DNA of 64,000 nt, from assembly GCA_947179485.1 (NCBI GenBank), contig OX359250.1, forward strand, positions 36,548,783 to 36,612,782, read 5' to 3'. How positions within the stretch are numbered: the stretch's first letter is position 1; each line of letters begins with the position of its first letter. Positions 9,434-37,285 of the stretch are shown here, piece after piece. Both the position numbers and the translations under genes were made by a program. The stretch is from Allacma fusca. Lineage: Eukaryota; Arthropoda; Collembola; Symphypleona; Sminthuridae. The notes under the pieces were generated by a model. That model was not told where the DNA came from. It ran no database searches and worked only from the letters and a program-made list of their open reading frames with translations.

Positions 9434-9441
9434 ATGCAAAT

Positions 9442-10527
9442 CAAAGATGCTAAACTGATTTTGCCTATCCTACATCCTACCTATACATTCAGTTTAGGAG
9501 GGGCCTTCCTTCTTGCCTATTTGTGCAATTGCTAGGCCTATATCCTTGCCTACAAGTAGGCATTTGCCGCTGCCTACATTTCTGCCTATATAGGGTAACG
9601 GAAAGTGTAAGCCCCTTCCTACATGGGACCCTATACTGTAGAATTAAATTATATTTTGATTAAAATTCATAATTACATTTGCTGTCTTTATTTTAGCAAA
9701 TTTATGATGGACATATTGCATTAGTTTAAAAAACAATTAGGCTATCCCTCATATGCAACAATTATTCAGCAAACACTCACAATTGTTTGTTACTTTCTTA
9801 TGTATCATATTTTTAAACAAACTGCTTGTGAGTACTTCTTCAAAATTAATGTTACTCGTGCATTATGTGAAAACTCCTATTGATTGGTCGTATTGCACGT
9901 TACAGTAAGTATATAAGCATCGAGCAATCACATACAATGTATGTATATGTACTTAGTTATGTATGGATATTATTTTGAATGGGAAATCTCACATGTCCCT
10001 ACAGTAGCCTGATGTTCCAACGTAGCCAACGTTCAAAAATCGTTTTGGTTAGCATTGAGATAACTTATTCCATAACTAGTAGCAGCCCTGTGCTTCACAG
10101 GAACAATTACTTGGAGAGGTGGTAGTGTGAGCGTAGAGGCTTAACCGCTTACAAATCAAGCCCAGTCGTGGAGACTTACTCTATGCCTAAATCTGGCGCG
10201 CTGATCTTCAGAGTAGAGCGCGAAATTTTAATAGCCACAAACTCCATCCCTAGGTCATTAATTTATAAGGATTATAAGGATGAGCAAATAGTTATGTACA
10301 TACATATGTACATCCTACATATTTGCCTTCATACAAGCGCGTTTTCGTGCTGCCTACATATATGCCTATATGACCGCGTGTATGCAGGCGTGCATTCCTA
10401 TTTTATAGGCATTTTTTCTGAGAAAACCAGTGCACCCTATTTTGCCTATAATTTTTTCTGCAAATAGCTCGCACCCTATAAATAGGCCTACATGTAGGCC
10501 TACATGTAGGATAGGCTAGCATCTTTG
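9442..10527. mobile_element. non-autonomous hAT-like DNA transposon (MITE-type)
   Basis: The left end (caaagatgcta at 9442) is the inverted complement of the right end (tagcatctttg ending 10527). Just inside, both ends carry gcctatcctacat in inverted orientation. The element is flanked by a perfect 8-bp direct repeat, atgcaaat, at 9434-9441 and 10528-10535. Eight-bp target duplications are the hallmark of hAT transposons. The interior has repeated tgcctacat/cctatat motifs and no transposase frame, so the copy is non-autonomous. Its ends differ from those of the element at 25.2 kb, so a different hAT subfamily would have to mobilise it. Confidence 0.8.
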
Positions 10528-10535
10528 ATGCAAAT

Positions 10536-23195: not shown

Positions 23196-24518
23196 CTAAG
23201 AATCAATCTTATCCCCACTTGCAGCGGCTATGGCTGAATTCTTGGCAGGAGGTTGAGGTGATTTTGGCTCCTCACTCGGTTTACTGTTTTGGGGTTTGGA
23301 CGACTTCGGCAACTCTCCAGGGTCGTCAAAAGACTTTGAATCGAAGTCAGTACATTGTTTACAGAAGCAAATGCAAAAGATAGTAATCAGGAGCAGACCA
23401 GCGGACACCCCCAGGGGAATGCCAATAGCCAAGGACAAATCCTTCACGTGTATAAATACGATCCCTCGAGAAGTTGCTTCCAAGAGAGGCGCGGTGTCTA
23501 TGGGGTGAGACGATACCCCGAATTTGTCATAAACTATACATCTCCACTCTCCATTGTGATCTACCGCTGCCTTTTTTATCGTAAGCGTTGACTTAGTCAT
23601 TCCATTGGTACCACTTCGTTTGAAAGTTATCTGCAATAAAAAGCATATTTTTGTGAATTAGGAATTTCACAAAATCACATAAGTAACTCTAATGAAGAAA
23701 TAACAATGGCGGCGGAGCAATAACAACAACGGTAATGGAGCAACAACAACTGCAACAGGGCAAAAACACATGCAACGGAGCAAAAACAAAACAAAACAAC
23801 ATACAAAAAAAATGGTTACCTTTGTGTCCTTGTAAAGCTTTTTGTTGAGAGAGACCTCACATTTTTTCCCGCATTTATCCACTGTTCCATTAAAGAAGTA
23901 CCGCTTGCACTTGTCGGGGTTATGTGAATTCCAATGGGGTTCCTTACAGTCCTTGGGACCCGTCCATTCCATCACAAACGGTGGTTGGTAATTTCTGATA
24001 TGGAAGTTGTTACGTTTGTCATCCATGAACGCCGTAACGGAGCAATCAATATTTTTCTCATCACCAGTGTAAACTTGAACGGGGAAATCCGGCCTTGCAA
24101 TAGGACGTAGGATGATGTTGTAGTGCTGGACGCACTTATCACTTTCGCAAGAAAGTAGGTGAACGTATCTCCGAGCATTTAAACCATCGGCACGAATTGT
24201 TCTTCCACTGTAAAACTTCGAGTTGAACTTTTTTTGCTCATCGCTTATGTTGGATCTCAATTTCCATATACAATTCACACCTTTAGGGGCTGTTAGTTTG
24301 AGACGGGCGTCCTGCCAAGATACGAAATGTAGGGTCCCGAGCCGGCCATTTGTAAGCTTGTCATTTTGGAGGAATTCTTTCAGACCTGGGTAATTCTTCA
24401 GCTCTTTCTCTCGCTCCATATCCGTTTTAGGGTTACAGTGTTTAATCAGGCCGTCGGAAGTGTGAAAACTCGTAAGTATCACTGCAAGAATTGTCATCAG
24501 TAGCTTGCAGCGAATCAT
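23196..24518 (-). CDS. single-pass membrane protein with Ig-like domain, paralogue A
   Basis: Two exons, 24518-23820 and 23640-region acceptor with coding 23630-23196, join in frame to 377 residues. I do not recognise the family. Visible parts: a signal peptide (about 1-23), a cysteine-containing N-terminal region starting LIKHCNP, an Ig-like domain with C159, W185 (EWTGPKDCKE) and C264 in the D-x-N-G-x-W-x-C context typical of Ig strand F, a transmembrane helix (about 299-321) ending in a cysteine cluster CFCKQCTDFD, and a short Pro/Ser/Lys-rich cytoplasmic tail. It shares this entire plan and many motifs with the divergent gene at 32359, so the two are a duplicate pair. The likely place is the cell surface, with the Ig-like part outside. 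A role as receptor or adhesion molecule is only a guess. Confidence 0.75.
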
Positions 24519-25204
24519 TGTCTCTGCCGAATGAGGTCACCTTCTTTGATAATTGGTTTTACTTTTTTTATACCAATTCTGATTGTGAGGCTAGCAATAC
24601 TTGGAACTGTAAATTTGGCACTGCGCAGACATGAAAGATGAAATTAAATGCATGAGGCATTTGTCTTTACACAAATGCATGTAAATGTAATGTTGAATGG
24701 TACATCTTAAATTAATGAGCGTTTGTCATTTTTTGCTGATGTTGGGAAAGTAATTATTTGTTAGATGTATTAGTGTAATAAGAATAGGTACTGCGGCATA
24801 GGAAGATAAAGTATCTTGAATCTTATTCAACAGTTATAGGTATCAGTGTCATAATGACATGTGTCATTTCATGAGATGTGAGAGCTCAGGTGAAAGCTTA
24901 GCTTGAATTTTATTACTTGTCTTGTCTGGCGTAGTTGAAGGTTTGAGATTTGAATAATTGAAATTGAGAAAATTATTTAAAAAAAATATAATACAAAGAA
25001 AATTTAATCTTTGACCTGTTGTACTTCAAATATCAAACAAGGCTATCACTTTTCCGTAGCTATGCATACATAATAGCCAGTATTCTAAAAATAGCTTCCC
25101 AAAGATGATAATTTCATACTTCGATCACTGACAGTCGAATTACAAATAAATGGTTCTAAATTAGGAAGCCTAGAAAGAGAATCAGCTTCATGAAGAATCC
25201 AAAT
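24519..25204. other. upstream flank of paralogue A
   Basis: A+T-rich DNA between the start of paralogue A and the hAT insertion, with no exon seen. It should contain the promoter of paralogue A. Confidence 0.45.
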
Positions 25205-25212
25205 AATATAAA
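25205..25212. repeat. target-site duplication of hAT element, left copy
   Basis: The 8 bases aatataaa directly precede the left terminus and are repeated exactly at 31609-31616 directly after the right terminus. Confidence 0.9.
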
Positions 25213-25251
25213 CAGAGCTGCGCTCAAGTACAAGTATTACTTGACACGTAC

Positions 25252-25284
25252 CAAGTCGGGTCAAGTTCGGGTCAAGTTCGGGTT
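25252..25284 (+). repeat. left subterminal repeats of hAT element
   Basis: Three consecutive copies of caagt(t)cgggt lie about 40 bp inside the left end. Matching copies near the right end begin at 31370. Confidence 0.75.
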
Positions 25285-25700
25285 GAGCTTTTAAATGTAC
25301 GTGATGAATCGGGTCAGGTACAAGTTAAAGGGGAATCCGAACTTGGTAATTCAAGTCGGGTAAATTGCAAGTGCAGGTTGAGAAACCATACTTGCATAAA
25401 AATATCTTGCAAGTGCGGATCTGAGCTCATGAAATACCTGCTCCCGAACGTGTACATGCAAGTATTATTTCAAGTATTTTGATTCTCAATAAAACGATTA
25501 TTCAAATGCCGCCTCGGTTCAGTCATACTTTCTCCCGAGAACGAGTTGATTTCGCGCTCATAATGAAAACGTTACCGACCCGTTAAGTGCATGCATTACG
25601 CACACCGCAATTTTTGGAGAACTAGGCGAGGGTTTAGTTTGCTTTCGGATTCACACTTCATAGCACCGACATTGTAAGTGTAATTATTTTTTATATACAA

Positions 25701-28700
25701 ATGAGTTCCTCGTGCCCAGAAATTGTAGAATTAACCGAAAATGATTATTCTGCAAAACCGGAGATTGAGAGGAAACGTTCAATTGCCCATCAACATTTTA
25801 CATTACTGGAAGGAGAGAATTACTATGAATGTAATTACTGCAAGTAAGTACTTATAATTTTTGTCGTTTTTATAAATATTGTTCGCTTCAAATATCAAAT
25901 CTACTAATATTTTTTCCTCACATTGGAAATCCTACTTAACATTGTATCTACGTCATTTTGAATACTGTGGTCTGGAAAAAATTCCTTGCTTTTCTCTTTG
26001 TATCGGCAATAAAGAATTTAAAAAGTTCGTCCACTGCATTTTTGTTAGTAATTTGTTTTTTAAGAGCAAATTAACATTATAATGTCTATATGTTACTCTG
26101 TTCCAGGAAGAAATTTAAACGCGAGTTGCGTTCTGGTACTGGAAATTTATTAAAGCATCTAAGAGGCAAGCATCCTAACAAGATGCCGCAAAACGCAACC
26201 GATCCTATCATTTCGTCGAAAGGAACTATTCCGAATTGTTTCAGCAAAATGGTATGCGATGATATTAACACTAGCAGTAATATTATGTTCAATGAAAACA
26301 TCACCTTTTAATATACAACATTTCAGACTCAAAAGCTTGCCGACGGAGATCTGGATCATATGCTTGTGGAGTTCATTATTATGACCGATCAGCCGTTTAC
26401 AATAGTCGAGGACGAGTCATTTCTGAACTTAATTCGTCATGTCAAACAGAATTCCGTACAAATTCCGAAACGGGACGCTATGAAGCGAAAAATTGAAGCC
26501 ATGTTTCACATCGAAAAGCAACTAGTTTTGGAAACGCTACAAGTAAAAATTGTCAAACCTATCGTTTGACTAATTTCAAGTTCATTTATCATATTTGATA
26601 AATCCCTTTCTCATAATTTCCATGGTCGTCAGGTGTACAAAACGATTGTTCCCCTTCCTGTTCCCATTCCATGGGTACTTCGTTTAAGTTTTCCCAAACC
26701 CAGACCCGTTTCCGTGATAGTGGGAACAGTATTTAAGGTACTCAGGTTTTTCAGTTAAAAAATATTTACCCGAACCCGGTTGAATTCCCGCACCCAGAAA
26801 TTAAAAATGTTGTGGAACCGTTCCGACAGCTGCTGGTCCCGGTCCCGTTCCCGGGACCAAGTCGTGTTGAACTTATATGTGGTAAAAATTATTATCCGGA
26901 TTTCTGTAAGTATAAGACCCTTCACTGTGCAGATAAAAAGCAGACAATATGGAGGGGCGCTAATCGCACCCATATAGCGAAACGCAGCAGCGTAATAACT
27001 GAGCCATTATTCAGAGAATATGTATAGAGTAGAACAAATATCAAACACGTTAAATGCCATAGTAATGAAGGATACAACAATGAATGGAACATTGATGTTC
27101 CAATAATAAAATTGATTGTTAATGATGGTTTTAAAATGTTAAAATTAAAGATTGATATTTATGATTAATTTCTGGCCCAAATATAATTGTTTGCATATAC
27201 AAGATATATGTAAAATATATGCCAGTATGGAATAATTTCCATTTGTTTGTCGTGAAAAAACTAATAATTCAAACAATCAATTTTTCAAGGGTATAAATTG
27301 CATTAAAAGTATAAACTAATAATAATTATTGTTGCAAATTGGCATTATGGTTGCAAATAATTATTATTGCAAGTTTTCCAAGATCAATTTTGAATGTGTT
27401 TCCAAAGGATGATAAAAGTACCCACTGAATCCCGGGAACAACAGGTATGGGAACATGAACATATTGATAATCTCCGTTCGTGTTCCCACTTCTGTTCCTT
27501 CTCCCTATATTCGGGTCCACTTGAATGTGCTCCTGTTCCCGTACCCAAAACTGGCTGGGAACAAAATGTTTGTTACCGTTTGCATGTACCCGGGTTTTAC
27601 CCGTTGCTGTGCCGACCACCGTTCCATTTCATCTCATTTTCAAATTGTATATGTAATCGCCTAATTATGCAGAAATGTCCTGGGAAAATATCTTTGGTGG
27701 TGGATTGCTGGACCACTAGAAGCGGAAAGTCTTTTCATGGAATTTTGGCTACTTTCGTTGATGCGGACTGGAAATACCAACAGTTGTTGCTAGATTTTGA
27801 TATTATGAAGGGATCACACACGGGGAAAAAATTAGCCGAATCTGTTTTTAAAACACTAACCGAATTTCAAGCTTGTGATAAACTTTTGGCTGTCACTTCT
27901 GACAATGCGTCCAATATGCATACCATGTTTGAAGAACTGGGATTTCTGATAAACCCTGGGGTAAATCCTTGTATATAATAATTATATTTAATTAATTCCT
28001 TGTTCAGAACGTTCCAATGCTCAGTAACGTACCTCATAGTTCGCCTAACCTCGTTTTGAAAATTGTTTATTATGTTATGCAAATAATTCAATTCAATATG
28101 GTGAAATTATTTATTAGCGGAAATTTGGTTTGCAATTTTCATTGTATCTTGTTACGTCAATATTTTTAAAATAATTCACCTGATATAGTTCTTCAGTAAA
28201 TCGTAGAAGCACTCGCTGTTGTTGGATACACCCATAATTTCAATCCATAAGTAATTTCCTTTGTTCTAAATTATAATTTTTGTAGTTTGCTCCCGAATTT
28301 GAATTTAAAGAACATCGCATCCGCTGCCTTGCGCACATTATTAATTTAGCGTGTCAAGCAGCATTAACAGTGCTTAAGAGGACCGAAACAAAAGATATTG
28401 CTGAAGAATATTTGTCTATGTCTGACTCAAGTGACACTGATGAAAATGCTGACGACAAATCTCTGCGCATTGGAAATAAACTTTCACTATATACCAGGGT
28501 AAATATATTCGTTCTTAAGCAGTACTATTTAATAATGATAAATAATCAAAATTTCCGCATGTGTATGCAGAAGCCGAAGTAGAGTAACCCCAAATAAGTG
28601 TAAACTTGCTGTGCGCCAAATTAAATTTAAGCATTTTGGTTCAGCCTGACAACTATTTTGCCCAATGGAAAACCGGCTCTAGCTTATATTTAAACGGGGT

Positions 28701-31182
28701 GGTTTAGATCCAATCGCCAAATTTAATCCTCTTCCATTTGCATTTTAGCTAAAAAGAGCCATTGTCAAAATTCGCAAATCTACTATTCTCGGGGATTCCA
28801 TGGTACACTTTTGCGACACTTTGCAAGTTCCAAAACTTCAGCTCTTAAAGGACATGAACGTTCGTTGGAACTCAACGCTTAAGATGCTACAAAGATGTTT
28901 GCTACTAAGACATGTAAGTAGTTATCTGTTCAGTCATTTGTATAAAACGTAACCAATTATCGTCATTGTGCATGTGTTACAAACGACCGAAATAGTACTT
29001 CCTTTAAAACTAGTGGTACAGGTCTACGGTAAAAACATTCAAACCCCCCATTTTGGAGCAATTTTTTTTCCAGATTTTACAAAGTAAGTACTCTGGCCGC
29101 GAATATTTCAGAAACAAAGTTAACGGAAATGGGTCAAAACGAGAAATGTTTTGAAAAAACGGACAATTTGAAGGTTTTTACTTAATAAAACGGAATTTGA
29201 CATTTGTAGACAATTTCAACAGAATTTAGGCTAGTAAACCTTCAGGACTCTAGGATAAATACGTTAGACAGACCGCAAAACTATAAACCAATATTTGCGA
29301 TCAAAATTTATAAATCAGCTTCATCAAATCGCAGAATAAAAGATACAATTGAAGTAAATAAAATTAAATCGTTCACTGATTCAATGTTTGCCTCAAGTTT
29401 ACATACAAAAAACGTAACACTAAGCTCAATTGGAGTAGAACCAAAATTGTTAACATTAGCCGTGATTTGAGTCGTCACAAAAATATTATTTTCCTCCGTT
29501 GGATTGGTAACAAATTTGACATTTTCCTGAATTAGGTATCAAATTTTATATTTTGCGAAATTTTTAAACTTCGAAAAAATTCTCGCCTTGCCCCACTTCC
29601 TTCCCAACTCTGTATCCAGAGTATTTGAGCCACGCGAATGGGGCGTATTTTGTAAAATACACAAGAAAACTTGCAACAAAATGGGGGATTAAATATTTTC
29701 TACCGTTGCCTCTTTTATGGTCTAGAGCCATAAAAATGATGTAACATCCTGTACCAGATGTGCTTGGACTTCCTAGAAAAAGCAAATTATTATAATGAAT
29801 GGTGCATTTAATCTGACTCCAAGTTGATCAAATTATTGTACCTATTATTACGTATTGCTTCCGTTTCCCCTGTTTCATGTGTGTAACGTCTGCTCTGGAG
29901 TGATTTATTATTAAACAAATCGAACAATAAAAGTGATCCTCATTTGTTTTTAAATGGTTTCAGGCATTAGATGCAACTATGATGAGCGATAAAACTTTAC
30001 GAGATTTAGTTTTGTCTGACGCGGAATGGGAAATAATTGAAGAAATGGTACAGTTCCTAGAGGTATTCATACAACGCCTAATTTGTTCATATAAAAGTTG
30101 ATTTTCACTAAATATTGGCACATATTTACTTGCAGCCTTTCAGTCAAATAACTGATAGAATGTCCAAACAGCATGTTCCCTTAATGTCACTATCAGCCGC
30201 AAGCTACGTTGACCTTTACGATCATTTAGAATCTTATACGGTATAATTTAAAATTATTGCATTAAGTTTGTTTCAAATTACAGCAATATATGTTGGCATT
30301 TTATACTATTTTGTAATAACTAATTCAGGACGAAACAAAATGCCATTCAGCTATTCTTTCTGCAGCAAAAAAAGCGTGCGAAAAATTGAATGATTACTAC
30401 CCAAAATCTGACGGTCTGGTATACGTAGTTGGAATAGGTACATGTCAGGAATATTAATATACACAGCTTGCGAACTTCCAGAACAATGTAATTAATTCTA
30501 AACCTATTGTTGCAGTACTGGATCCCAGGTGTAAACTAGACTGGCACAAGTCTGTGGGTTACAAGAATATGGTACCGAGTTATAAAGCGTAAGGCGTAAA
30601 TGATATTATTATTGTTATAAAAAATTTAATTATTATCAGCATGTAGTAAAATGTTGCGTGTTTATAGCCTTGTGACCAAGTGTTGGCGATCATTCTACAA
30701 ATCAACCGAGGAGTCTCCTAAGGATGATGACGTTGTTCTAGATGTATTTGAGCGGCAAATGAAACGAGCCAAATATGATTCTCGGGATGAACTGGAGAAA
30801 TATCTTTCTGATGGTCCTGTTAAATCAAGTGATCTTCCAAATGGCGTTCTCTCGTGGTGGAAGGTTTAGCACTTCATTATAATCGTTAAAATTAATGCAC
30901 ACTATTTTTATGATTTCCGGTATTTTTCAGGATCACGAAAACATATACCCGAACCTATCAAAAATGGCGCGCGATTTTCTGGGAGTCTCGGCCACGGGCG
31001 TTCCAGTGGAGTGTCTTTTTTGTATGGGAACGGATTTGCTCACTCCAAAACGTCTGTCAATGTTATCAGACACTATTCGTACTTGTCTTTGCCTCAAGGG
31101 TTGGTTGAAATTTAAGAAACGTGAGGATTATCTCAAGCTGAGAGCTACAGCGGTAGTGCAACGAATACTTGGGGAGGCGTAA
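25701..31182 (+). CDS. hAT family transposase with BED zinc finger, 12 exons
   Basis: Twelve exons join in frame to 674 residues: 25701-25843, 26107-26251, 26327-26542, 27673-27960, 28286-28498, 28749-28913, 29964-30062, 30136-30240, 30329-30437, 30516-30588, 30647-30863 and 30931-31182. The N-terminal BED finger uses C44, C47, H65 and H70. The RNase-H-like core shows DCWTT (D179), SDNASNM (D245), the CLAH motif (from C278) and RWNST (R374-W375). The C-terminal hAT dimerisation region includes YPNLSKMARDFLGVSATGVP in exon 12. It catalyses cut-and-paste transposition in the nucleus. No stop or frameshift was found across any exon, so it is probably functional. A poly(A) hexamer lies at 31221-31226. 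The number of introns is high for a DNA transposon. Confidence 0.9.
26620..27620. repeat. nested gttccc-rich repeat in transposase intron 3
   Basis: The third intron (26543-27672) is far longer than most others in the gene, and its interior is dominated by gttcccgttcc/gggaac motifs in both orientations, dense near both edges. This looks like a second element nested in the first. The sequence tggtcg near 26630 and cgacca near 27620 may be its ends, but I could not fix termini or a target duplication. Confidence 0.5.
28914..29963. other. long sixth intron of the transposase gene
   Basis: A 1.05-kb intron, again longer than its neighbours. The short inverted motifs ggtacagg (about 29014) and cctgtacc (about 29750) suggest a further nested insertion, but without a target duplication this stays unproven. 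Confidence 0.3.
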
Positions 31183-31369
31183 TAATAGCTGCAACAATCA
31201 ATTTGTTTGTACTTATATAGAATAAATGTGACCACTTCACTATAACTTAACGAAAAATTATTGTATTATTAAAGTAGTCACCAAAACTTGTTCCGTAAAA
31301 TTTAATTTTCGTTGTGTCACAGAAATTATTGCACTAAGTTAAAAAATTACTTGAGTTGTACTTGCAATT

Positions 31370-31405
31370 CAAGTTCGGGTTCAAGTTCGGGTTCAAGTTC
31401 GGGTT
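31370..31405 (+). repeat. right subterminal repeats of hAT element
   Basis: Three consecutive copies of caagttcgggtt, in the same orientation as those near the left end, followed by scattered caagt motifs up to the right terminus. Confidence 0.75.
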
Positions 31406-31608
31406 ACACAATTTCGGAATCGAATTGCAGGTAATATTTCAAGTTCAGGTACGTCAAAATATACTTGGTTAAAATTACTTGAATGATCAAGTACTCTCGA
31501 AGATTCAAAATACCAAGTTCGTGTCCATGCAAATTTATACTTGCTAGTTCAAGTGCAGGTCAAGTTCAAGTTCGGATCCTGAACTTACTTGACCCGAACG
31601 CAGCTCTG

Positions 31609-31616
31609 AATATAAA
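31609..31616. repeat. target-site duplication of hAT element, right copy
   Basis: aatataaa, identical to 25205-25212. Confidence 0.9.
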
Positions 31617-32358
31617 CAACTTGAACAATTATTATTATATCAATCAGTTTTAAAATTTATCAGGAGGCTCGCAACAACAACAACAGTTGATTTAATTGGT
31701 TTTTTAAATGAGTATACTTAGTAAATCGCTATTATAAATTGTAACGATCAGCTACAGAAACACATTTGCTAGTAAGGAGTTATAATTTGGAGAATTAAGT
31801 TGCCAGGGCTCATTACCATCAAATATTTTTAGTATTTTTAAATTTGAATAATTGTTCTAACTACAAAGTTCTGTTTTGAATGCACAGCACAAAAATAATG
31901 GGAAACATAAATTACACGAAAGTAAATCCTTTCAATTTTGCTGTCATATTATCCCAATCCATGCAATATAAAGCAATGTCAATAAATACCAATGTTGTGT
32001 CTCATTTCAGTAAAGGGGTTCAGTAAGATGGACTATTATTAATACAATATGCGGTGAATGGTAAAAAACTGGAACAACTATAATTTGACATGAATGAGTT
32101 ACAAAGTATTCAACACAGGTAATATACCTGCCTCTCTGCGGGCAATGTTAGTTATCCCGGGCATGTAGCTTTCAGCAGCAGCAAGGTATTCGCACGTCAA
32201 GGTATAGTCCAGAAATTCCAGAATTATCCGTACAATTAGTGACAAATGACCACGTGAGGCTTTCAAATTTACTATCTAACTCACAATTTGAATCCATTTG
32301 AAATCCTGCCATATCCTTTAGTTACTGCCCCTTGCATGTAATTCAAAATCAAGATAAG

Positions 32359-33942
32359 ATGAACAACTTGCGGATCACACTCACGGCGCTTGTATTACTC
32401 AATTGTACTTATAAATACTGGTGTCTGATTAAACACTGTGACCCAGATACGGACGAGAAGAGGGAAAAAATGCTAGAAGCAGGGGATTATGGTAACTTAA
32501 AAAAATACCTCCAGGCCGATACTACCACGAATGGTCGCATTGGATTCATAATGTTTGCCAACTGGCAAGACCAGCTCCTTCACATTGAAGCCCCTAAACA
32601 TATCTTGGGTGACTGTTTGTGGAAGATGAAACCCGAGGGGAAGAACGACAAGGAGGCCAATGAGTTCAACGATAAGGGATACGTGGGAAAGCATCTTTAT
32701 GCGGGTGCCTTAATGAAAAATTTTTACCTGCGAACCATCTCCTGCGAGACGGACCATTGTGTCCAGTACTACAACGTCGTGTCAAGACCTATAACAAAAC
32801 CGGACTTTCCCGTCCAAGTCTACGTGACCTACGACGTTGATGTATATTGCAATTTGGATTTAATGGATACGCACAGTAGGGACCTATTCAAGCCCCCATT
32901 TCAGTTTATATGGACAGGACCGAAAGATTGTAAGGAGGAAAATTGGGATACAGCAAGTTGCAAAAAGTACGTACACTCGCCAATTGATGAGGACAAATGC
33001 GCCAGTCACGCAGGTTGTGATGTCCAAGTCGAGACAACTGGGCCCTATAAAAAAACAAAGGTTACTCAATTATTCCAGAATTTATTTTTTCCTCACAAAT
33101 GATCACATACAATGAATGAGTTACAGCTCTAGGCTTCGCGGTATCTTCTAGGGGGTTGTTTCCCATACATTTATATGACAGCAAATAGGAATACCATTCC
33201 TTAGAAATTCCCACGAAGTCATAGGAAACAAGGGGAAGAATTCAGAAAATTATTGTTAAAAATTGCAAGTAAACATCTGAGAAATTTCGAAAATTCCAAA
33301 GGGATCCAATCTGGGATATTTTTAAAGATCTCTTCACTTCCCAACCTTAAAATTTTGCTAATTTTGCATTTTACTCCCAGAGGAAAAGTCGTCTTTTTAT
33401 AGAGAACATTTAAATGGGGTATGAGAAAAGGCTACCTCAATGTTTTGCAGATTAGAATCACCGGGAAAACTATCGGTGGGGAAAAAAGTCAAATCAAGTC
33501 AGTGTTACAAATTAAAGACGCTGCCATGGAACATAATGGGAAATGGAGGTGCATTGTTGTGGATGCCAACGGAGTCTCTTCCGATCCTGGACTTAAAGAT
33601 CACAAATCCTTTGAAGATCAGGGCATCATCCACAGAGGGACCATCCAGATTCACGTGAAAACTATTTGGTTTGCAATTGGAGTTCCTCTGGCAATCATAT
33701 GTGGAGTAATTATCATGTCATTGCTTTGCATCCTCTTGTGCAAGCAATGTACGGACTTTGATGTTACCCCGGATCAAGATCCTGCAGAAGGTGCTATTGA
33801 AAATGATTTGCCAAGAGTGGAGAATACTAAGACTGTGAAGTCCTTGGCTGTAACAGCTGCGCCAACTGTCGCCCCCGGAGGCCTAGCCACAGCAAGCATT
33901 GCAAATGTTAAACCAGGTACAATTGTTGCCTTTTTACCCTAA
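32359..33942 (+). CDS. single-pass membrane protein with Ig-like domain, paralogue B
   Basis: Two exons, 32359-33060 and 33451-33942, join in frame to 397 residues. The intron falls at the same position and phase as in paralogue A (after the TK residues). The layout is the same: signal peptide (about 1-22), LIKHCDP start of the mature protein, NGR-containing N-terminal region, PDFPVQVY, Ig-like part with C164, W185 (IWTGPKDCKE) and C268 in an HNGKWRC context, a transmembrane helix (about 306-329) and the juxtamembrane LLCKQCTDFD. The cytoplasmic tails of A and B differ, B being Ala/Thr/Val-rich. I do not recognise the family. The first ATG giving a signal peptide was chosen as start. A donor-like gtacaa at about 33917 leaves open a longer spliced tail. 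Confidence 0.75.
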
Positions 33943-35574: not shown

Positions 35575-36173
35575 GCACATTGAATAGAAATTCCGATTTG
35601 AATCGACATTCTGATTTGCATCGAAATTCAGATTTGAATCAAAATACAGGTTTGAATCAAAATACAGGTTTGAATCGAAATGCAGGTTTGAATCGAAATA
35701 CAGATTTGAATCGAAATTCAGATTTGAATCGAAATTCAGATTTGAATCGAAATTCAGATTTGAATCGAAATTCAAATTTGAATCGAAATTCAGGTTTGAA
35801 TCGAAATTCAGATTTGAATCGACATTCAGATTTGAATCAAAACACAGGTTTGAATCAAAATACAGGTTTGAATCGAAATGCAGGTTTGAATCGAAATACA
35901 GATATGAATCGAAATTCAGATTTGAATCGAAATTCAGATTTGAATCGAAATTCAGATTTGAATCAAAATACAGGTTTGAATCAAAATACAGGTTTGAATC
36001 GAAATGCAGGTTTGAATCGAAATACAGATTTGAATCGAAATTCAGATTTGAATCAAAATTTAGATTTAAATCGAAATTCAGATTTGAATCGACATTCAAA
36101 TTTGAATCGACATTCAAATTTGAATCGAAATTCATATTTGAATCGAAATTCAGATTTGAATCGAATTACAGGT
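35575..36173. repeat. 18-bp minisatellite with higher-order repeats
   Basis: The unit gatttgaatcgaaattca is repeated about 33 times. Variant units (aatacaggtttgaatcaa, aatgcaggtttgaatcga) recur in the same order beginning near 35638, 35836 and 35962, that is 11 and then 7 units apart, so blocks of several units were duplicated. Since 18 is divisible by three, both strands carry long open frames (about 210 residues of N-x-D/G-L-N repeats). I regard them as artefacts. Confidence 0.9.
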
Positions 36174-37285
36174 TTAATCGATAACTGTCGCATGAACTCG
36201 CCCATGCGTTAATTTGAATAATATTGTAAACGTTTTTCAAATTTAGGGAATACGTACTCATTATAATTAGACGCGGGAATTTTAAATTATTTTTTAAAAT
36301 TATAATAAGCTCATTGGTATATGTATATGCATATACCTTTTAAAGTATTTGTAGGAGAACCGGAGAACGGATACCTCTCTCTATAAGGGATACCCTTATT
36401 AGGGATTGTTATTTTAAGAACCGAGTCCCGATTCCCATTGAGAATCCCTTATATTGCGAGAGTTGACTGTAAAGGTACCAGCAATTAGCTAGTGCTGTTA
36501 CATCCTATGGAGGCGCTTCGCCCCTTAGTGACTCACGTAGTACCGTAGTGAGTAGTGCTGACCACAGATAATTTTGTTACGTACACGACACAAAGTCGTT
36601 GCATATCGAAGTGCCCCTCAAAATACCAGCAAGTACTTATCAGACGCCGAAGGTTTCCTGACAAGAACATTAATTTTAGTGGACGTTATATCGGTGAGAT
36701 AACGTTTTTTCTTTCACTTCAAAATTCATTGTAGAAATAATAAGAGTGGATAGTTTTGTGGAACGTTTTAGTGGAATTTACAATAGGACTCGTGTAAATG
36801 ACCTCCTCGTAAGTGCACTATTTGCTATTTTTGCATAAACGCAAAGTAGCTTACGGTGTGCGGCTTGGGTTTGGAGTTTACGAAGTTCTTTTGGAAGATC
36901 AGCTTTAGCAAGGTCGTTCCTGTACGGGGACATGTGTCTGTAAATGAGCCATTCGACCAATAGGCCACCAGAAGATCAATATTAATATTATTTGTAAGTA
37001 AGTACATTCATATTTATAATAAAAAACTAAATATAATGTTTTATTTTTATATTATTATTTTAAATATTTATTTTGTTGAGCAAGTATTTGTTATAAGGGC
37101 TACGGGGGACCGTTATATATTGTTGATGCGATATCGTGTAATTCTTATGGTGGATAATTATATACACTTTTGTGGCATTTCTTCTTGGCGACGTTATTTA
37201 ACCTTATGGGAAGGAATGTAATTTAATTAATTATCAATATTCAGCTGGTGTAAACTGATAATTTATATTTGTAATGTAAATTATA
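36174..37285. other. no gene seen
   Basis: A+T-rich DNA with a block around 36355-36460 of short direct and inverted copies of aaggga/tcccttat. It has no recognisable exon. An acceptor (aaattatag) ends at 37285, so a non-coding exon of the next gene may lie here. Confidence 0.4.

Follow-up and report, generated by a model that had tools for sequence, protein, structure and literature searches.

Can a hAT transposon whose transposase gene is divided among twelve exons be complete and still mobile? The question is raised by a locus of the springtail Allacma fusca, where an element of 6,396 bp lies inside 8-bp duplications (25205–31616, duplications included) in a 64-kb stretch of DNA, the whole of which was analysed and is referred to here as the window. 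An earlier note on this DNA had described an intact hAT transposon, had suggested recent activity and had proposed a possible autonomous master copy. The sequence comparisons of the present study indicate that the element is complete and probably self-mobile (autonomous), and that the hAT family to which it belongs has moved recently.

Element Termini and Chromosomal Setting

The features of the element are collected in Table 1. Both the inverted ends and the target duplication reported in the earlier note are perfect, and CAGAGCTGCG occurs exactly twice in the whole 64 kb, as the two ends of the element. These short inverted ends match at 10 of 10 bp; PMC3942097 gives 10–25 bp for hAT terminal inverted repeats. 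The combination of a perfect 8-bp duplication and a perfect 10-bp inverted repeat, 200–12,000 bp apart, was found three times in the window: at this element, at a second element (9434–10535) and, as an artefact, in an 18-bp satellite at 35764. Sixty Markov shuffles yielded the combination once in total, and a chance origin of the duplication and ends of the window element was thereby ruled out. The matching subterminal repeats were also recovered: AAGTTCGGGT is present twice in the left 308 bp and three times in the right 308 bp, in identical and not inverted orientation at the two ends, and is absent from the interior and from window positions 1–25204, and CAAGT reaches 45–49 per kb at the element ends against about 3 per kb elsewhere. 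Neither blastn nor tblastn found further copies within the 64-kb window, Rfam gave no matches there at gathering scores, and the search for relatives gave no pattern matches in viral contigs and 11 pattern matches, none of them a relative, in prokaryote genome contigs.

Table 1. Features of the hAT element, in window coordinates.
Feature	Position	Strand	Basis
Left target-site duplication, AATATAAA	25205..25212	.	perfect 8 bp
Left terminal inverted repeat, CAGAGCTGCG	25213..25222	+	perfect 10 bp
Left subterminal region, rich in CAAGT / AAGTTCGGGT; possible site of transposase binding	25223..25520	+	repeat counts
Exon 1: start codon, beginning of BED finger	25701..25843	+	gene model, Pfam
Exon 2: remainder of BED finger	26107..26251	+	gene model, Pfam
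Exon 3	26327..26542	+	gene model
Intron 3: enlarged by old dispersed repeat of ~1 kb (roughly 26630–27640)	26543..27672	+	
Exon 4: DCWTT with D179, TSDNASN with D245	27673..27960	+	gene model, translation
Exon 5: CLAH motif	28286..28498	+	gene model, translation
Exon 6: RWN motif	28749..28913	+	gene model, translation
Intron 6: enlarged by old repeat with 61-bp inverted arms (29026–29086 / 29646–29706)	28914..29963	+	
Exon 7	29964..30062	+	gene model
Exon 8	30136..30240	+	gene model
Exon 9	30329..30437	+	gene model
Exon 10: LDPRCKL	30516..30588	+	gene model, translation
Exon 11: start of dimerisation domain	30668..30863	+	gene model, Pfam
Exon 12: dimerisation domain, candidate catalytic E611, stop	30931..31182	+	gene model, Pfam, Hermes match
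AATAAA, possible polyadenylation signal, 39 bp past stop	31221..31226	+	
Right subterminal region, dense in CAAGT / AAGTTCGGGT	31301..31598	+	repeat counts
Right terminal inverted repeat, CAGAGCTGCG inverted	31599..31608	-	perfect 10 bp
Right target-site duplication, AATATAAA	31609..31616	.	perfect 8 bp

The chromosome that carries the window matches X2 of Allacma fusca, one copy of which is lost early in the development of males, as stated in PMC10427803 and PMC9630974. The element lies between head-to-head reading frames at 23199–24536 (-) and 32302–33939 (+), which look paralogous, with LIKHC and WTGPKDCKE in both, and it could affect their shared upstream region. The second element has an 8-bp duplication ATGCAAAT, ends CAAAGATGCTA and internal TAGGCCTACATG repeats, and is abundant, the best 40 of 424 candidates matching it at 97–100% over the left 259 bp. 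The 18-bp satellite (35580–36181) comprises 33.5 copies and is open in several frames.

Transposase Gene

The twelve exons, all with GT–AG borders, join in frame to 667 codons, so that the open frame claimed earlier is upheld but its stated length of 674 residues is corrected. By this model, which rests on comparison with related genes, a complete open transposase gene lies between intact ends. Both the BED finger and the C-terminal dimerisation domain that had been proposed score above their Pfam cut-offs, as zf-BED (PF02892; 2.2e-8, 34.4 bits against a cut-off of 20.6) and Dimer_Tnp_hAT (PF05699; 6.5e-17, 61.5 bits against 21.4); hAT-like_RNase-H (PF14372) reaches 20.9 bits, under the 27-bit cut-off. 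DCWTT, SDN, CLAH and RWN are all present in the translation, as had been said, their names as motifs being those of the earlier note and presumed here to be correct, and the choice of D245 as a candidate catalytic residue depends on TSDNASN, which is likewise presumed to be the relevant motif. Hermes is the best relative with a solved structure (PDB; phmmer, 8.4e-6), the match being significant in the C-terminal domain only; E611 is aligned to a Hermes Glu within this significant match, and D179 is aligned only in a non-significant stretch. The AATAAA past the stop codon is weak as a signal, since 168 such hexamers occur in the window.

Conservation of Introns among Related Elements

The sister element L067 (4,238 bp) has CAGAGCTGC ends and its own perfect 8-bp duplication. 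Spliced at GT–AG borders picked with the window gene as guide, its gene is open over 660 codons and has 11 introns with the positions and phases of those of the window gene (2,0,0,0,0,0,0,0,1,2,0); the predicted protein is 60.5% identical to the window transposase. Synonymous sites are saturated between the two genes (pS 0.82, pN 0.26), no sequence similarity was found in the 11 pairs of introns, and introns 3 and 6 of L067 are just 79 and 77 bp. Three other places (C10:54.5M, C10:58.9M and C8:61.7M) equal the exon 12 score of L067, and this second intron-rich family may therefore also be young. The twelve exon peptides likewise match two further elements, L065 and L066, as 12 separate blocks in conserved order, some of them partial; L065 carries CAGAGCTGC ends and a perfect 8-bp duplication, and a perfect right end was not found for L066.

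Relatives with few introns (L035, L036, L040 and L046) specify transposases that are 31–36% identical to the window protein. Their frames are continuous, with small gaps near most junctions, across junctions 2–8 in L035 and L036, 3–8 in L040 and 4–11 in L046. GT–AG introns lie at the matching place at two junctions of L035 and L036 (9 and 11) and at one each of L040 (9) and L046 (3). At junction 1, L046 has a break at or near the site (imprecisely placed) and L035 shows the acceptor side only. At least introns 3, 9 and 11 are therefore also found outside the intron-rich clade, and the others may have been gained in this clade or lost in the rest; the loss of contiguous blocks of introns would fit recombination with cDNA. 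Read-through in these relatives, together with the open gene of L067 and its pS and pN values, rules out that the exons are random open stretches. A sister gene with the same introns and read-through in intron-poor relatives therefore support the splice model, and the in-frame joining of the exons predicted by the earlier note is supported by this comparison, in that L067, too, has an open frame once these 11 introns are taken out.

Introns 3 and 6 of the window gene are enlarged by inserted repeats. The intron 3 repeat is present in the five long copies of the element (see below) and, among the best 40 of 517 candidates, at 35 other places at 73–77%; the intron 6 repeat is likewise found in 5 of 5 long copies, and elsewhere as short degenerate matches. 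Because all five share them, the inserts predate the divergence of the long copies and are not recent disruptions of the window copy, whose frame survived both. A search for the precise ends of the inserts gave no convincing target duplication.

Why so many introns should be retained invites a more speculative reading, regarded here as rather doubtful: an intron-rich hAT lineage may have kept 11 fixed introns to the point of synonymous saturation, still jumping, and used them as a brake on its transposase, with full splicing confined to certain tissues, for example the germ line. In the P element, intron retention limits transposase. If such a brake exists, the families without blocks of introns would document how a mobile gene has lost or gained introns. 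Since introns are shared by some of these related elements and missing from others within a single genome, their turnover in a transposon gene can be tested directly.

Copies in the Genome

Copies were sought in the window's own assembly (392,743,791 bases in 91 contigs), which as deposited represents one haplotype of one male, according to PMC10427803. Among the best 40 of 485 candidates for the left 200 bp, 9 (the window copy included) match at 99–100% and 31 at 95–97%; for the right 200 bp, the best 40 of 417 candidates were scored. Exon 4 was found at six places (four full at 98–100%, one partial, one at 72%), and the best 40 of 84 candidates for exon 12 comprise 4 full matches at 97–100% and 36 with its last part only, at 87–93%. 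The 31-bp left end has 56 exact copies in the genome, and the reversed control has none. The 54 exact left ends that lie on six chromosomes are unevenly spread (chi-square p 7e-4), with 22 on contig C8 (chromosome 2) against 10.6 expected and 1 on contig C5 (X1) against 7.8 expected, which could reflect local hopping or selection on X1. The transposase-like frame of another hAT element contains, at position 2842 of L059, a left end of this type (CAGAGCTGCGCTCAAG), the right end of which is outside the stretch examined.

Twenty elements chosen from the search lists were extracted and added to the window copy. Every one of the 21 carries the two exact 10-bp ends. In 19 of them the 8-bp duplications are perfect and differ from element to element, and in the other two they match at 7/8 and 3/8 as extracted. 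Five are long (6,396, 6,339, 6,403, 5,845 and 5,548 bp), one is of 3.8 kb and 15 are of 1.02–1.33 kb. The 19 targets have T at position 2 in 15 cases (p 3e-5), A at position 7 also in 15 (p 2e-5), and both in 12; the Buster consensus, which is taken to be nnnTAnnn, fits two. The preference of the family is thus of the nTnnnnAn type described for Hermes in PMC10368747, and the window copy's own target, AATATAAA, has A at position 7 without T at position 2. Two empty sites were also detected: the flanks of L026, joined with a single copy of the duplication, align gap-free across the junction to the repeat in intron 3 of the window element (145/206, 70%), and those of the long copy L017 align to sequence near L020 (57/75, 76%). 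These sites are paralogous repeats and not alleles of the same locus, and as alignments they lend support to precise insertion.

Recent Mobility

Eleven derivatives of about 1.28 kb differ from one another by 0–3.4% (median 2.1%), and include two pairs that are identical letter for letter, L024/L031 (1,283 bp) and L032/L034 (1,282 bp), with different duplications and flanks. Identical pairs at unrelated sites mean that the family moved very recently, and therefore that transposase was needed in the very recent past. Copies of the element are accordingly not all old, and the recent activity suggested earlier holds at the level of the family, as is also seen from the nine places that match the left 200 bp almost perfectly. 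From the ends of the window copy, the 11 derivatives differ by 10–11% substitutions, and L024, the one derivative compared in full, matches the window element at 86–87% with gaps, in left and right parts of 684 and 558 bp. The window copy therefore need not be their parent, and the derivatives descend from a related lineage.

Among the five long copies found, an open frame is present only in the window copy. In L015 exon 4 is frameshifted; L017 has an early stop and an altered acceptor; exon 1 is missing from L016, which also has frame changes; and L018 lacks exons 11 and 12 entirely, as well as portions of exons 4 and 10. For this reason the window copy stands as a candidate autonomous master copy, as the earlier note had proposed.

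Divergence of Exons and Introns

Substitutions relative to the window copy are fewer in exons than in introns in L015 (0.65 vs. 2.99%, Fisher p 5e-10), L017 (2.70 vs. 6.99%, p 2e-12) and L016 (1.94 vs. 6.99%, p 1e-16), and the difference is not significant in L018, the closest long copy (0.73 vs. 1.15%, p 0.26). The expectation that hAT elements decay quickly, voiced in the earlier note, is too simple here, since copies that are 7% apart in their introns still have fewer changes in exons. Nonsynonymous changes are below expectation in all four pairs with the window copy (one-sided p 0.014–0.040, the pairs not being independent), with dN/dS of 0.23–0.51. Synonymous distance is smaller than intron distance in three of the four pairs (e.g., 0.014 vs. 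0.032 for L015), and selection on the protein therefore does not by itself account for the exon effect, to which recombination among the copies or some other constraint may also contribute. The outer regions of the other four long copies are 0.55–1.74% different from those of the window copy, and positions 25213–25520 of the latter differ by 0.3–1.0% substitutions.

Proposed Mechanism and Alternatives

It is very likely that the window element is a complete cut-and-paste hAT transposon that works as follows. The host would transcribe the gene and splice its twelve exons, giving a 667-residue transposase whose BED finger, by analogy with Hermes, may bind the CAAGT-rich subterminal repeats. The RNase-H-like core, with the candidate residues D179, D245 and E611, would cut at CAGAGCTGCG, and the element would have been inserted at an 8-bp target of the nTnnnnAn-like type, which was duplicated in the process. 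The same transposase probably moves the short, internally deleted derivatives, with the window copy as the putative source of movement.

The strongest alternative, possible if somewhat unlikely, is that the window copy, though complete, is silenced or carries a subtle defect, and that recent movement came from a transposase copy absent from the assembly, be it on the other haplotype, in other individuals, or in an element since lost. An assembly of one haplotype from one male leaves room for such a copy (PMC10427803), the 1.28-kb derivatives are about 10% off the window copy, and none of the six places found with exon 4 DNA is a coding copy that stands nearer to the lineage of the derivatives; against it, the window copy is intact in its frame, its splice sites, its two ends and its duplication. 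It is quite unlikely that the derivatives were moved mainly by the transposase of a sister family, such as that of L067, with the window family a bystander. L065 and L067 do share the CAGAGCTGC ends, and the gene of L067 is open, with three other places equal to it in exon 12 score, but L024, the derivative compared, matches the window element at 86–87% at each end (over 710 and 574 of its bases), as opposed to just 258 bases of the right end of L067 (67%) and about 250 bases at each end of L065 (67–70%). Domestication of a hAT transposase as a host gene, with a retained cellular function, would account for slowly changing exons and for introns as numerous as is familiar from host genes, but is very improbable given that five long copies, each with exact ends, occupy five sites, that four have perfect duplications and four are broken, and that there are sister elements (L065, L067) that likewise have inverted ends and perfect duplications.

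Comparison with Known hAT Systems

On the cut-and-paste reading preferred here, a candidate for an active hAT system would exist in a springtail in which males eliminate chromosomes and, probably, the genome inherited from the father. The system comprises a single autonomous candidate with an open gene, identical derivatives whose sites are known, and at least one sister element whose gene is also open. If the element works, it could become a genetic tool for the springtail group. No report of a 12-exon hAT or of Allacma hAT elements was found among the titles and abstract openings listed for open-licence papers, and since that scope is narrow the evidence for novelty is weak and no first report is claimed.

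The element is an intron-rich new member of the known hAT superfamily. Among described elements, BuT2 of Drosophila (hAT, Tip group; PMC3942097) is similar in having a multi-exon gene with a product of 643 aa, near the length of the window protein, short inverted ends, duplications of 8 bp, short copies that arose by deletion and show signs of having been mobilised recently, and secondary insertions, one within an intron; it differs in having five exons, 2,775 bp and 12-bp ends, compared with twelve exons and 6,396 bp. Hermes of Musca (PMC10368747) shares the BED finger, the dimerisation domain, subterminal repeats and the 8-bp nTnnnnAn preference, but is about 3 kb long, with 17-bp ends and a 612-aa protein. 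The class and the mechanism are thus known, and the unusual part is the eleven conserved introns.
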